Positions 2,920 through 9,986 of a DNA stretch of 25,678 bases are shown here, in pieces. Origin of the DNA: a virus. Made by a program: the position numbers and the translations under genes. Where the stretch lies: positions 1 to 25,678 of the IMG/VR virus record IMGVR_UViG_3300022752_000348. One strand, 5' to 3'. The notes beneath the pieces are model-generated. The model made no database searches, was not told the DNA's origin, and worked only from the letters and a program-made list of their open reading frames with translations. Position 1 is the first letter of the stretch. The number at the start of each line of letters is the position of its first letter.

Positions 2920-3302
2920 TATTTTTTCTTTTTAGCTCTGCCGCCTTTTTTCATATATTCAGCAGTTTCTTCTTCAGCATATTTTTCTGGAGATACTTTT
3001 CCAGCTTTAATAGCTTTAGCTTGTTTAGATAAACTTTTTAATTCTTCTCCTTTATGCTTTTCAGCTTTTTCTTTTTTAACAAATTCTTTTGGAGATACTT
3101 TTCCAGATTTAACTTGTTTAGCTTCTGCTAATTCTTCACCATAAGTTTCTTTACCACCAAAAGCTTTTCCACCTTTTTTTAAAGCAGCTCCCATTCCTCT
3201 AAGAGCAATTCCACCGCCTCTAAGTGCAGCTCCCATTCCTCTTAATGCAATTCCACCGCCTCTAAATGCTGGTCTTGGTCTTTGTTTAAAATCGTTTCTC
3301 AT
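2919..3302 (-). CDS. Repeat-containing Gly/Lys-rich protein
   Basis: A 127 aa protein. Residues 14-41 contain a near-perfect internal duplication of RGGGIALRGMGAAL (the DNA repeats too, about 3184-3264). The rest is Lys/Glu-rich and holds a second duplicated element, K-x-GKVSPKEFVKKE and KAGKVSPEKYAEEE, about 35 residues apart. It ends in a KKGGRAKKKK tail. Late marine-phage proteins with the RGMGAA-type motif are common and uncharacterised. The ATG is preceded by AAGGAG. It leads the run of small basic proteins after the holin. Amphipathic Gly/Ala/Leu repeats could insert in membranes or pack against the capsid interior; both are guesses. Confidence 0.72.
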   Translation of the reverse strand: MRNDFKQRPRPAFRGGGIALRGMGAALRGGGIALRGMGAALKKGGKAFGGKETYGEELAEAKQVKSGKVSPKEFVKKEKAEKHKGEELKSLSKQAKAIKAGKVSPEKYAEEETAEYMKKGGRAKKKK

Positions 3303-3312
3303 TTTTTTCTCC

Positions 3313-3741
3313 TTATCCGTTTTCCTGGTTAGTGTTTGTCGGTCTATTTGCCATTGTGCGAGCTACCGACTCTGCGCTACGCCCAACTACATAACCTCCG
3401 AGTCCAACATTTAACAATGTCCAAACATCGCCAGGTAATTCAAAAGTGATTACTGCACCCATGAATACTTTTATAACAGGTCCTATAACATAATTCCAAA
3501 CTAAAATAAAGATCAAAACATACATCAAAAGAGGTCTCCAAGAACTAGCAAACCAGCCAGCTTTTGCTTCAGCTTCAATGATTCTAGATGCTGCTTGTAG
3601 CTCTTGTGTATGAGATTGTAATAATTGAGTTTGTAATTGTGCTTTTAATTTCTCTTGTAAATCTTTATCAGGAACTGCTTTTTCAATAGTACTAAAAAGA
3701 ATTTTGGCTAATGGTGCGATAGCTCCAAGCATTGGAAGCAT
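3313..3741 (-). CDS. Holin of the 3-TM (GTA holin-like) family
   Basis: A 142 aa membrane protein. The N-terminus (LPMLGAIAPLAKILFSTI) is hydrophobic. A Gln-rich helix (about 30-58) is followed by the hallmark AGWFASSWRPLLMYVLIFIL, then VWNYVIGPVIKVFMGAVI, then a third hydrophobic stretch WTLLNVGLGGYVVGRS. The W-x-x-SWRP motif followed by paired TM segments is characteristic of the 3-TM holin family found in gene transfer agents and marine phages. Such holins permeabilise the inner membrane to release or activate endolysin. The endolysin here lies far away at 13134-13691, so the lysis genes are split between transcription blocks. The holin is within the structural operon, suggesting late timing. 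Confidence 0.82.
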   Translation of the reverse strand: MLPMLGAIAPLAKILFSTIEKAVPDKDLQEKLKAQLQTQLLQSHTQELQAASRIIEAEAKAGWFASSWRPLLMYVLIFILVWNYVIGPVIKVFMGAVITFELPGDVWTLLNVGLGGYVVGRSAESVARTMANRPTNTNQENG

Positions 3742-4112: not shown

Positions 4113-6560
4113 TTACATTCCTGTTATTTTAGTTTGTTGTATTCCTTGCTTTGCAAGACTTACACCAGCTCTTAGTTTAGCTAATTTTTCATTTTGTTCA
4201 AGCTTATTTTCACTATTATTTTGGTTCATTAAGGCTCTCATCTTATCTAAGGCTATTCTATCCTCAGCTTCTTTACGTTTTTGCTCATTTTCTATAGCTC
4301 TTAAGTCAATTTCACGTGATTTTAGCTTCAATAATGGGTCAGAATCAAATTGTCCTAACACTTTATTTTCTTCATCAGCAAATTCTTTAGTCATTTCAGC
4401 TATTAATTTAGCTTTTCTTGATTCAATTTGACTCATAATCATTTGAATCTGTTGTAAAGCTTGTGGATTTATTTGAGCTTGTTGTTGCAATATAGACATT
4501 TGTTGTAATTCTTGTACAAATTCTATTTGAACTTGTTCTTGAGCCATTAAAGAAATGTGCTGAACAATATTTCTTTGTAATGAAGAAACAGAAATTGGAT
4601 TATTTTTAACTGAATTCAATTGTAAATAATTTAAATGAGCATCAATGTGAGCTTTATGATCTTGACCAGCAAATGCTTGGAAAGGAGAACCTGTCATTGA
4701 AGCGATATGTTCCATTGCAGGATCCATTGGTTGTGGTTGTCCAGGTGGTGGTAATATTAAATCAATATTTTTTACACCAATAGCTTCATACATAGATCTG
4801 TATGCTTGATACAAATTATGAATTTGTGGATTTGATTGAGCAAGTTGTAGTTGAGTTTGCGCTAAACTAATTCTTTGAGTTTGAGAAAATATATTTGGAT
4901 CAGCAACTGGAATAATATCTACTTTATCATCAAAATCAGTTTGTTTAATTTGTCTTGCTCCACCAACAACATCATATGGATATACTGGTGGTAAATAAGT
5001 TGCGAATACTTTTGCTAATAATTCAAATTCATTTTTAAGTGAAGCATACAATCGTTTATGAATTGCGGACATCACCCTCGATCCGCGCTCCAAGAGCGCT
5101 AATGTCGTACCGACTGCAGCTTGTTGATTCATATCGCCCACTTGTGCATCTGCGATGCTCGCGAATCGTTGACCTGCTTGAACCACAACACCCATTAATT
5201 GTAATAATGTTTGATCCGGTCCTTTAAATGGTAAAGGTAAAAACGCATCACGAAGATTTCCTCCCGGAGCGTCGACATCTCTAAATTCTCCTGGTTGAAT
5301 TGGTTGTGCATCATCTCTAACTCTAATACCACGCATTTTAAATCCTGCTGGTAAATTAGCTAAAGTTCCTGCATCTAATAATTGTCTTAAAGCTTGTGTT
5401 GCAGTTCTTGATAAACCACCAATCATGTGAATTAATCCAAGACCATAGAATCCAAGTCCTGGTAAAAATTTAAAATGTACAAAATAATTAATTTTTCTTC
5501 TTAATGGATCATCTGGTTTATAATTACGTCTTATAGATAAAACTTCTCTAGAACTTTCTTCAATCGTTACAATATATGGAAGTTTAATACCTGTGGGCTC
5601 ACCAGTTTGAGGATTTTTATCTTCAAAACCTTCTATATCTAAATTAACATGACATTCTAATAATGTATAAACATCTGCTTGTTTAGAAACTCTAATCCCT
5701 TGTAATTCTAATTGTTTCTTTTCAATATCATCTTGTTGTAATGGTGGTTCTCCTAATTCAACATCTTTATAAAATCCTGATACTTGTTGTTTCTTTAAAT
5801 CATTTTCAGAAATTTTAAGTACATGAATAATTGCTTCAGCGTCTTCTAATGAAGTTGCAGTATAAGGTACAATTAAATCATCGGATGGAATAAATTTAGA
5901 TACCGCTCTTTGCAACATTTCATCATAATAAATTTTTTTAAATGTTGATCCTGATAGTGGTAAATAAAATAACATTTGATCAAACTCTGGTTCATATTCT
6001 TTCATGACATCCATAATTTGATAATTCATAAAATCTTTAACACGAGTTGCTTGTTCTTCTTTATTTCGATCTGACATTCCTATGATTTCAGTTCTAACAG
6101 GGCCACCTGCTGGTAATAATTCTTTATAAGCTTGTGATTGGAATTGTGTAATTGCTTCAGCTAAAACTGGATGAGTTACACCCGATGCATTTCTAAATGG
6201 TTGTGTTCTTGTTTTATAAGTAAATCCTAAAAGGTCTAAACCTTTTACATAAGTCATTTCCCAATCTTGTCTTGAAGATTTATAATCAGTATATTTTTCT
6301 TGAAGATCAGAACCGATTCCTCCAAGAATACTATCATCTAAAAATTCTGCAAGATTTGCATTATGGTCTTGTCCACCTTCTTGTGATGCAAGTTGTGGGT
6401 CAAAAGAAATTTCTGCTCCACCATCTTCTGTTTGTTTGATTTCAATATCAGGATTTTGTGCTTGTTGTAAATCTTCTTGAATAGATTGTTCTACTTCAGT
6501 TTGACCAGGAATTTCAATAGTAGTCTTTGTATTCGGCAACGCCTTATCTATATCAGCCAT
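4113..6560 (-). CDS. Portal protein (P22 gp1-like)
   Basis: An 815 aa protein, in the length range of podoviral P22-type portals. After an acidic N-terminus, conserved features include YKSSRQDWEMTYVKGLDLLG, GASGVTHPVL-like sequence (NASGVTHPVLAEAITQFQ), the LPLSGSTFKKIYYDE segment typical of this family, and a GLGFYGLGLIHMIGG stem region followed by LPAGFKMRG and the D-x-P-GG-x-LRD loop. The C-terminal 200 residues are Gln/Leu-rich helices (barrel/crown-like), ending in Lys/Glu coils. Portals form the dodecameric DNA channel at one capsid vertex and bind the terminase. It lies downstream of the large terminase in the same operon, the standard order. The DNA around 5080-5180, encoding LLERGSRVMSA and its surroundings, is locally GC-richer than the rest. 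Confidence 0.9.
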   Translation of the reverse strand: MADIDKALPNTKTTIEIPGQTEVEQSIQEDLQQAQNPDIEIKQTEDGGAEISFDPQLASQEGGQDHNANLAEFLDDSILGGIGSDLQEKYTDYKSSRQDWEMTYVKGLDLLGFTYKTRTQPFRNASGVTHPVLAEAITQFQSQAYKELLPAGGPVRTEIIGMSDRNKEEQATRVKDFMNYQIMDVMKEYEPEFDQMLFYLPLSGSTFKKIYYDEMLQRAVSKFIPSDDLIVPYTATSLEDAEAIIHVLKISENDLKKQQVSGFYKDVELGEPPLQQDDIEKKQLELQGIRVSKQADVYTLLECHVNLDIEGFEDKNPQTGEPTGIKLPYIVTIEESSREVLSIRRNYKPDDPLRRKINYFVHFKFLPGLGFYGLGLIHMIGGLSRTATQALRQLLDAGTLANLPAGFKMRGIRVRDDAQPIQPGEFRDVDAPGGNLRDAFLPLPFKGPDQTLLQLMGVVVQAGQRFASIADAQVGDMNQQAAVGTTLALLERGSRVMSAIHKRLYASLKNEFELLAKVFATYLPPVYPYDVVGGARQIKQTDFDDKVDIIPVADPNIFSQTQRISLAQTQLQLAQSNPQIHNLYQAYRSMYEAIGVKNIDLILPPPGQPQPMDPAMEHIASMTGSPFQAFAGQDHKAHIDAHLNYLQLNSVKNNPISVSSLQRNIVQHISLMAQEQVQIEFVQELQQMSILQQQAQINPQALQQIQMIMSQIESRKAKLIAEMTKEFADEENKVLGQFDSDPLLKLKSREIDLRAIENEQKRKEAEDRIALDKMRALMNQNNSENKLEQNEKLAKLRAGVSLAKQGIQQTKITGM

Positions 6561-8929: not shown

Positions 8930-9412
8930 GCCGGGCACGGAGCCCGGCGGCGAGCCGCAACAGCGGCGAGACCGGGCGACGCCCCGCGCAGCGGGGAGAG
9001 CGGCGCAACAGCGCCGCACCGCCGACCACGACCCGCGCAGCGGGAGGAGCGCGCCGCAACAGCGGCGCACGACTCAATGCCCGCGCAGCGGGCACGAAGA
9101 GCAGCGCAACAGCGCTGCACGATTGAGGGATGGCGAGCCGCGAAGCGGCGAGCGCACAACCTAGGATTGTATGTTGCGCTAGAGCAACACCGTTGCATAA
9201 TTACAAGCGCCGCGAAGCGGCGCCCCACGACCCGCGGAGCGGGGTGCGACAATATGTCGCATTGACTTTAATGATTAAATAAATATAGGCGCGCGAAGCG
9301 CGCCCCGACCCATAAGCCGCGAAGCGGCGACCCTCGAGCACGCCAGGCGCACAACCTACGCGCGAAGCGCGGACCGCGTGCATCGCAGGCAAGCCTGCGA
9401 CAATTTGTCGCA
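8930..9412. repeat. GC-rich array of about 18 short palindromic hairpins
   Basis: Perfect inverted repeats (left arm start to right arm end): 8930-8948, 8954-8967, 8982-8996, 9000-9017, 9032-9044, 9051-9068, 9079-9093, 9101-9118, 9137-9149, 9172-9189, 9207-9223, 9231-9243, 9245-9261, 9288-9304, 9316-9328, 9359-9371, 9383-9400, 9396-9412. Loops fall into classes: AACA (second, fourth, sixth, eighth), GCA (third, fifth, seventh), GAA (ninth, 11th, 14th, 15th, 16th), GGA, ATA/ATT. Stem sequences differ between copies while staying perfectly paired, for example GCGGCGC/GCGCCGC, GCGCCGC/GCGGCGC and GCAGCGC/GCGCTGC. The GCGAAGC core is known as an exceptionally stable mini-hairpin in DNA. Base composition contrasts sharply with the AT-rich genome. 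Confidence 0.92.
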
Positions 9413-9464
9413 TTGACTATTTGCGGATCGTTGATCTCTAAAATTTGCGAATCAAAAAATTTAG

Positions 9465-9493
9465 TTGTTGCATTATTATTGTTATAAGATAAT
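9465..9493 (+). promoter_or_regulatory. Candidate sigma70-type promoter for the 9562 gene
   Basis: TTGTTG at 9465-9470, a 17-bp spacer and GATAAT at 9488-9493 (5 of 6 match to the -10 consensus; -35 weak, 3 of 6). It points at the plus-strand gene at 9562 and would start RNA near 9500, right at the 5' edge of the structured leader described next. Predicted by inspection only. Confidence 0.45.
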
Positions 9494-9501
9494 GTGGGAA
9501 G

Positions 9502-9554
9502 TGGGTTAGCTATCCTTGTTATGTAAACTAACCCATTAACAATTAAACAAGGAG
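9502..9554 (+). promoter_or_regulatory. Candidate SD-hiding pseudoknot leader
   Basis: An 8-bp stem TGGGTTAG (9502-9509) / CTAACCCA (9528-9535) closes an 18-nt loop. Inside the loop, TCCTTGTT (9513-9520) is perfectly complementary to AACAAGGA (9546-9553), which contains most of the AAGGAG ribosome site (9549-9554) of the gene starting at 9562. This geometry (stem 8, first loop 3 nt, middle 7 nt, last loop 10 nt) is that of an H-type pseudoknot that would block ribosome binding, as in several short translational riboswitches. No known aptamer consensus was recognised. The complementarity is seen in the sequence; the regulatory role is inferred. Confidence 0.55.
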
Positions 9555-9561
9555 CGAGAAA

Positions 9562-9753
9562 ATGATAACAACTAAAATAGTAAAGAATGGAAGTGACTTA
9601 GGTTTCATTGGTATGTTAATCCAAGTAACTAAGTTTCAAGATGGTTCGTTTGATGAACAAGTTTTAAAATCAAAGCATTACACTTTAGAAAAGAATGCTG
9701 AAAGACAAGTAAAAAAATGGCTTGATAGTCATAACAATATAAAGGTTGATTAA
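9562..9753 (+). CDS. Small plus-strand protein of unknown function
   Basis: A 63 aa protein with a strong ribosome site (AAGGAG, 7 nt before ATG). The sequence alternates strands and a final amphipathic helix (LGFIGMLIQVTKF; YTLEKNAERQVKKWLDSHN), suggesting a small beta-beta-alpha fold. It is one of the few genes on the plus strand and lies immediately after the candidate promoter and pseudoknot leader. The next plus-strand ORF begins directly at its stop codon, so the two are probably co-expressed. No family is recognised. A regulatory or host-takeover role is only a guess. Confidence 0.72.
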   Translation: MITTKIVKNGSDLGFIGMLIQVTKFQDGSFDEQVLKSKHYTLEKNAERQVKKWLDSHNNIKVD

Positions 9754-9924
9754 ATGATAGCTGATCTAATAGATAATTTATACATGCTGATAATGTCAGG
9801 CGTTTGCATATCAGCGGTCATCGGCGCGCTGATCTGTTGGTACATGATTAGTGTTGATTTAAAGCAGAAGGATGACTTTGATAAGAAGTACCGCGAATCG
9901 CGGGATATTGAAGGACGTTGGTAG
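9754..9924 (+). CDS. Small single-pass membrane protein
   Basis: A 56 aa protein whose ATG follows the preceding stop codon with no gap (TAAATG). Residues 8-33 form a hydrophobic segment (LYMLIMSGVCISAVIGALIC), followed by a charged cytoplasmic-type tail with KQKDDFDKKYRESRDIEGRW. The tail is partly encoded by a GC-rich palindrome (9891-9903) of the same style as the nearby hairpin array. The stop codon lies inside the first unit of a 21-bp tandem repeat. Function is unknown. Confidence 0.6.
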   Translation: MIADLIDNLYMLIMSGVCISAVIGALICWYMISVDLKQKDDFDKKYRESRDIEGRW

Positions 9925-9986
9925 TATGTTGAAGGACGTTGGTAGTATGTTGAAGGACGTTGGTAGTATGTTGAAGGACGTTGGTA
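9908..9986. repeat. Four tandem 21-bp repeats
   Basis: Unit TTGAAGGACGTTGGTAGTATG at 9908-9928, 9929-9949 and 9950-9970, plus a 16-nt partial copy at 9971-9986. The units are identical. The repeat contains the stop codon of the membrane-protein gene and ends 1 nt before the stop codon of the convergent nuclease gene. An ATG-started frame crosses it (9926-9991, MLKDVGS three times, the last ending N), but I see no ribosome site. Length of 21 bp is two DNA helical turns, as in protein-binding iterons; recent slippage is the simpler explanation. Confidence 0.95.

Follow-up and report, generated by a model that had tools for sequence, protein, structure and literature searches.

The SAM-II, SAM-V and preQ1-I/II/III riboswitches are pseudoknots that sequester the Shine-Dalgarno (SD) site. 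Among phages, the translational operator of T4 gene 32 is a pseudoknot that belongs to one autoregulated gene, and the put RNA of HK022 and boxB of lambda are promoter-proximal hairpins with a conserved loop that act in antitermination. The methylophage Melnitz has been reported to carry a glutamine riboswitch of the glnA type (PMC9004378, accessible text). A riboswitch scan of pelagimyophages and compared phages found none, according to the available text of that study (PMC7029224), and HTVC023P is named without an element of the kind described below in the accessible portion of PMC10504331. No description of this element was found in the accessible text of the literature on pelagiphages, on phage riboswitches and pseudoknots, and on structured phage RNAs. 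It looks like a real control element that has hitherto not been described.

The window, that is, the whole stretch of 25,678 bases that was analysed, is a virus record with matches to terL, portal, DNA polymerase, helicase, primase and small terminase. The original prediction had placed an 8-bp stem in the leader of a small gene, with an 8-nt complement of the SD region in its loop, and both stand in the sequence. The stem, P1, is formed by TGGGTTAG (9502–9509) and CTAACCCA (9528–9535) and can be extended to 9500–9509/9528–9537 with one G-U included; the loop segment TCCTTGTT (9513–9520) pairs exactly with AACAAGGA (9546–9553) in the SD region, a pairing termed P2. A repeat search of the window recovers P1 and P2 as repeats I9 and I10. 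The exact pattern of stem, loop and SD, which was itself read off the sequence, occurs once in the window and in none of 100 shuffles. When 566 kb were scanned for the topology in general, 11 rows came up (with the window leader counted twice) versus 1–4 in Markov sequence, and the remaining rows resemble chance matches in coding sequence. The fold energy of the leader is ordinary compared with shuffles (z 0.12, 105 of 200 shuffles being equally low). Taken alone, the window offers only a suggestive case for a structured leader. The features of the locus are collected in Table 1.

Table 1. Features of the leader and the small genes behind it, in window coordinates
Feature	Position	Strand	Basis
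Candidate promoter: TTGTTG 9465–9470, 17-nt spacer, GATAAT 9488–9493	9465–9493	+	Own reading; block aligned with L076 and L141
P1, 5' strand; 8 Watson-Crick pairs from 9502, 10 pairs from 9500 (one G-U)	9500–9509	+	Covariation, 22 sequences
Conserved 16-nt loop TATCCTTGTTATGTAA, consensus UAnCCUUGUnAUGUAR	9511–9526	+	Comparison of members
P2, 5' strand (complement of the SD region)	9513–9520	+	Exact complementarity; class A comparison
AUGUAA start-stop inside the loop, kept as AUG-UAR; AUGUAG in L141	9521–9526	+	Comparison
P1, 3' strand	9528–9537	+	Complementarity, covariation
L3, A-rich linker from P1 to SD	9538–9545	+	Sequence; aligned with class A relatives
P2, 3' strand AACAAGGA, SD inside	9546–9553	+	Complementarity; class A comparison
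First gene of the small-gene operon, 63 aa, without family match	9562–9753	+	Start codon 9562
Second small gene, 56 aa; similar to the third small ORF that follows the L334 element	9754–9924	+	

The same element is present in at least 30 virus records, the window included. It consists of a P1 stem that is rewritten with compensation and a near-constant 16-nt loop, UAnCCUUGUnAUGUAR. Ten records belong to class A (window, L076, L097, L141, L199, L247, L334, L340, L343 and L355) and 19 to class B, and L215, which has no RBS close by, was assigned to neither class in the SD-pairing test. Members were collected with a two-sequence profile and by scanning the viral collection for the exact loop and for the SD context, one loop scan amounting to 76 stretches; weak candidates with short stems or in coding sequence (L163, L214, L337 and similar rows) were excluded. 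Covariation in homologues, which had been proposed as a check, was found in P1: among 22 sequences (20 distinct), both sides have changed in 10 of 11 pairs, and covariation is 0.668 compared with 0.281 (sd 0.032) in shuffled and at most 0.205 in slid alignments. An earlier set of 13 sequences had given 8 of 11 pairs changing on both sides and a covariation of 0.554 versus 0.237. All 20 distinct rows have standard pairs at the five inner positions; every member was required to have a stem of at least 4–5 bp, so the percentage paired is partly given by construction, and the compensatory changes are not. The near-identical L247, L216, L227, L250, L321, L331, L177 and L238 were omitted from the alignment and kept in all 30-record counts.

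The loop is invariant at 12 positions and almost so at 3 others, much of which is forced by the search pattern. All members except the window, L076, L003–L005, L141 and L355 were found by the exact loop pattern, and the constancy of the loop is thus partly built in. These seven loci, found independently of the loop pattern (window, L076, L003, L004, L005, L141 and L355), differ from one another at few loop positions only, namely positions 1 and 3, the second n, an inserted U in L003 and the last A, which is G in L141. An AUG followed by a stop is present in 30 of 30 loops, forced by the search in most of them, and the sole stop variant, UAG in L141, was found without the loop pattern. A peptide in the frame of the loop AUG showed no conservation by eye among the member leaders. 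A start-stop within a hairpin loop (AUG-UAA at 9521–9526 in the window, AUG-UAG in L141) is odd in itself.

All elements lie within relatives of the HTVC023P/027P-type pelagiphages. The 29 loci besides the window, and L371, all encode relatives of the window's terL, terS or portal, and the element stands about 0.4–1.04 kb upstream of the terL start in 26 of 27 element records with terL, the exception being L215. The first genes behind the element vary widely and have no metabolic family match. For the 63-aa gene of the window one relative was found, in L001 (88% identity in the best segment), and its leader is plain. The terL relative L076 (73%) shares the upstream block and the leader and has a different gene behind, with compensatory changes in P1 and a nearly intact loop; that second leader-borne gene has relatives in L150 and L151 without the element. 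The two-sequence profile found the element before further genes in L003, L004 and L005, the closest terL relatives. Judged from these sequences, it is the locus and not the gene that carries the leader, and the hairpin is promoter-proximal in most members and independent of the gene behind.

The model R1, run on 89 sources made up of the window, terL relatives, phage isolates and gene relatives, finds the element in 5; among 80 terL relatives it finds the element in 4 (L003, L004, L005 and L076), 42 of the 80 having at least 1150 bases upstream of terL. When 26 records were searched whole, 12 matched at E <1e-10 with one copy each and 10 gave no match; the matches of the other four, at E 0.05–0.53, were taken as chance. 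The element is absent from five named phage records (HTVC027P, 023Pt_psg01, DSL-LC04, HTVC023P and HTVC115P), and BLAST of one class A and one class B leader against 50,697 phage records gave no match. The genome collection has 29 stretches with the exact loop, none of them with a convincing stem, and the model matches 0 of 397 Pelagibacteraceae genomes, an empty result that by itself shows little for a scan of this kind. A host origin was considered for L291 (Pelagibacteraceae AG-359-E06), which has the exact loop and a promoter-like pair before RmuC but an imperfect stem, and was rejected; the matches of relatives to its downstream stretch are coding sequence in the 8 loci read out. A resemblance to the loop at L084:1989–2019 and an R1 match in L058 (18 bits) also read as coding sequence.

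Classes A and B differ in the pairing of the loop. In class A, the loop complements 7–11 nt of the 26 bases before the start codon in 10 of 10 members (11 nt in L076), which 0–44 of 2000 loop shuffles match; in class B, the best complement of loop and SD is 4–5 nt in 19 of 19, which is the chance level. At the variable loop position P2 needs a U, which all 10 class A members have; class B has either A or U there. The SD-complementary loop, from which the original prediction had read the topology of an SD-sequestering pseudoknot, recurs in every class A member, but the pseudoknot does not stand as a conserved core, since the loops of the 19 class B members match the SD no better than chance. 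On this evidence the hairpin with its loop is the conserved object and the putative pseudoknot is a feature of class A. P2 is without covariation support because its arms are invariant in class A. The comparison shows, through its covariation, that P1 is real, and the SD complement present in every class A member makes the SD pairing likely. The geometry of class A (a 3-nt L1, a P2 of 7–8 bp, an L2 of 6–7 nt and, in members without an insert, an A-rich L3 of about 10–14 nt, longer in L076) would allow an H-type pseudoknot that covers the SD. L097, L199 and L247 share one hairpin inserted between P1 and SD with both P2 arms intact; L355 has an insert of different sequence there, also with intact P2 arms, and its lowest-energy fold forms P2 around the insert. 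The inserts of L097 (565–635) and L355 (8573–8637) are two unrelated hairpin domains at the same point. L371 keeps the SD context and has no hairpin, so the loop by itself does not account for the conservation of AACAAGG. This natural hairpin-less leader (about 1836–1880, − strand), in a sister of L141, also keeps the same promoter-like block.

Orientation follows the same division. In all 9 class A records with terL the element points away from terL; in all 17 class B records with terL it points toward terL, reading into the operon that contains terL. A terL tree was built from 44 rows, namely 22 element records, L371, and 21 element-free records selected from those whose upstream stretches are long. 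It requires 4 changes for class A and 3 for class B, and it places L334 (A), L238 (B) and the window (A) close together. The spread of the two classes over the tree indicates that the element locus has been swapped or lost repeatedly.

The start of the RNA had been predicted at the edge of the stem, which is plausible in the window from GATAAT at 9488–9493, but the best-scoring pair of the window lies further upstream. Among the 30 members, the best-scoring sigma70-type pair ends 3–8 nt before P1 in 22 and 21–28 nt before it in the other 8, one of which is the window; single scores are weak. The RNA is likely to start at the base of P1. Further upstream of the leader, the palindrome TGCGACAAtaTGTCGCA stands directly before TTGACT twice in the window (9245–9267 and 9396–9418), and similar combinations of palindrome and TTGACT are present in L076, L097, L141 and L199; this may be an operator beside a −35 box.

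P1, the constancy of the loop over rewritten stems, the genomic neighbourhood, the independence from the gene behind and the A/B split are all established by comparison of the members. We propose that the element is a phage-specific promoter-proximal leader RNA of the terS-terL region of HTVC023P/027P-type pelagiphages, in which a freely rewritten P1 would present an almost invariant 16-nt loop. The loop would be recognised by a putative trans factor common to these infections, which may be a phage or host protein, a ligand or the ribosome. In class A only, CCUUGUU of the loop would pair with AACAAGG of the SD region as an H-type pseudoknot, and P2 would hold back translation of the gene at the head of the small-gene operon for as long as the loop is neither engaged nor opened. 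Because the loop is kept where the stem is free to change, even without SD pairing, something must read it; because the leader is independent of the gene behind, its reader is unlikely to be a pathway metabolite. Loop recognition plus SD occlusion in class A is the reading we consider most likely, and we hold it with evenly balanced confidence. One point against it is that the 11-nt pairing of L076 would use part of AUGUAA, which makes AUGUAA less likely as a free pocket. In what would be a new class of phage translation switch, the loop may also be the sensor itself, its first half an antisense of the SD and its second half an AUG-UAR whose binding by a ribosome, factor or ligand would free the SD. 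We regard this as unlikely.

A possible, though not probable, explanation is that the element serves RNA polymerase or a transcription factor as a site on the RNA, acting in antitermination or pausing, with the SD complement of class A as a secondary matter. Its promoter-proximal position in most members, its indifference to the gene behind, the constant loop on a varying stem, its presence without SD pairing and the reading of class B into the terL operon would all suit such a site, which nevertheless leaves the complement of 7–11 nt in 10 of 10 class A members unexplained. The original prediction had proposed, next to protein or temperature control, a possible new class of metabolite riboswitch with an SD-sequestering pseudoknot, for which there is a precedent in the phage glutamine riboswitch (PMC9004378, accessible text). 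The compact hairpin, the conserved loop, the SD pairing of class A and the optional inserts between P1 and SD agree with such a riboswitch, but the first genes differ and have no metabolic family match, class B is without the pseudoknot and Rfam gives no match. A metabolite riboswitch is improbable and not favoured, since the genes behind the element vary.

It is quite unlikely that P1 is only a 5'-terminal hairpin that stabilises the mRNA with an incidental loop sequence, as its position at the predicted 5' end and its variable stem sequence might suggest, for a stabiliser would need no conserved 16-nt loop. A role in packaging or replication, as a site in the DNA or the RNA that is near terL by coincidence, would fit the distance of about 0.4–1.04 kb from the terL start in 26 of 27 element records with terL; this is very unlikely given that the orientation flips between the classes, that nearly all members have the element between a promoter-like pair and an RBS, and that a site in double-stranded DNA predicts no covariation of the stem. 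A trans-acting antisense RNA against the SD sites of other phage genes is extremely unlikely: the loop is indeed the antisense of an SD context, yet 9 of 423 RBS windows hold a 7-nt complement of the loop versus 10.6 for shuffled loops, which is no enrichment. A pairing between the loop and the 3' region of 16S rRNA (11 positions with one G-U) is broken by the A-variant of class B and was put down to coincidence.

Like the SAM-II, SAM-V and preQ1 riboswitches, class A has a hairpin loop that would pair with the SD, an A-rich linker and an optional hairpin before the SD; unlike them, the element has no Rfam match, lacks SD pairing in class B and precedes varied, non-metabolic genes. With the T4 gene 32 operator it would share, in class A, a phage pseudoknot leader that acts on translation, but it is one leader before many different genes. 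With put and boxB it shares the promoter-proximal position, the conserved loop and the independence from the gene behind, and differs in the SD pairing of class A; we know of no sequence match between the element and either of them. The glutamine riboswitch of Melnitz (PMC9004378, accessible text) is likewise a regulatory RNA with structure in a phage whose hosts are streamlined marine bacteria; the element differs from it in structure and genes and in having no Rfam match in the window or the member loci. That no match to the conserved cores of the SAM-II, SAM-V and preQ1-II types is present, as had been noted from the letters of the window, agrees with Rfam, which gave no match above gathering in the window and 15 member loci. 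SAM-II, SAM-V, preQ1 and the glutamine riboswitch (glnA and Downstream-peptide) had no match at gathering in the same loci, and the SAM-II, SAM-V and preQ1 families were absent up to E 5 within 9420–9640. Matches at lax E (tsr33 and mir families) were far below gathering scores and were rejected.

A different structured RNA occupies the same interval in HTVC027P (L084), where a Flavobacterium-1 RNA (RF02976, 90 bits) lies at 3280–3400 on the − strand, between terS and terL and upstream of gp34, within an unannotated and strongly folded stretch of 500 nt (z −4.63). Like the element, it precedes a small gene in the terS-terL interval, and it differs from the element in size and structure. RF02976 matched only in HTVC027P, with none in the window or 15 member loci. 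The table of the HTVC027P record places gp30, gp33 and gp34 between terS and terL; these genes have been reported to form extra temporal clusters, and the early genes of this phage to be all of unknown function (PMC12753301, accessible text). A covarying leader, found in phages alone, that is swapped before different small genes at one genomic place offers a direct handle on gene control, and it can serve to test how loop-SD pseudoknots are gained and lost while the hairpin persists.

The surroundings of the leader contain further repeats and folds. In the window, the gap between terL and the leader (9000–9400) is filled with numerous short, GC-rich palindromes centred on GAA (CGCGAAGCGCG, CCGCGAAGCGG), and 21-nt head-to-tail repeats lie at the 3' end of the 56-aa gene (9905–9986). 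Palindromes of another kind (GAGCCCT/AGGGCTC) follow the small genes of L076. In L215, a strongly folded stretch (5700–5965, − strand; z −3.73) without a clear gene begins with P1 and the loop, with terS further downstream, and this may be a longer RNA.
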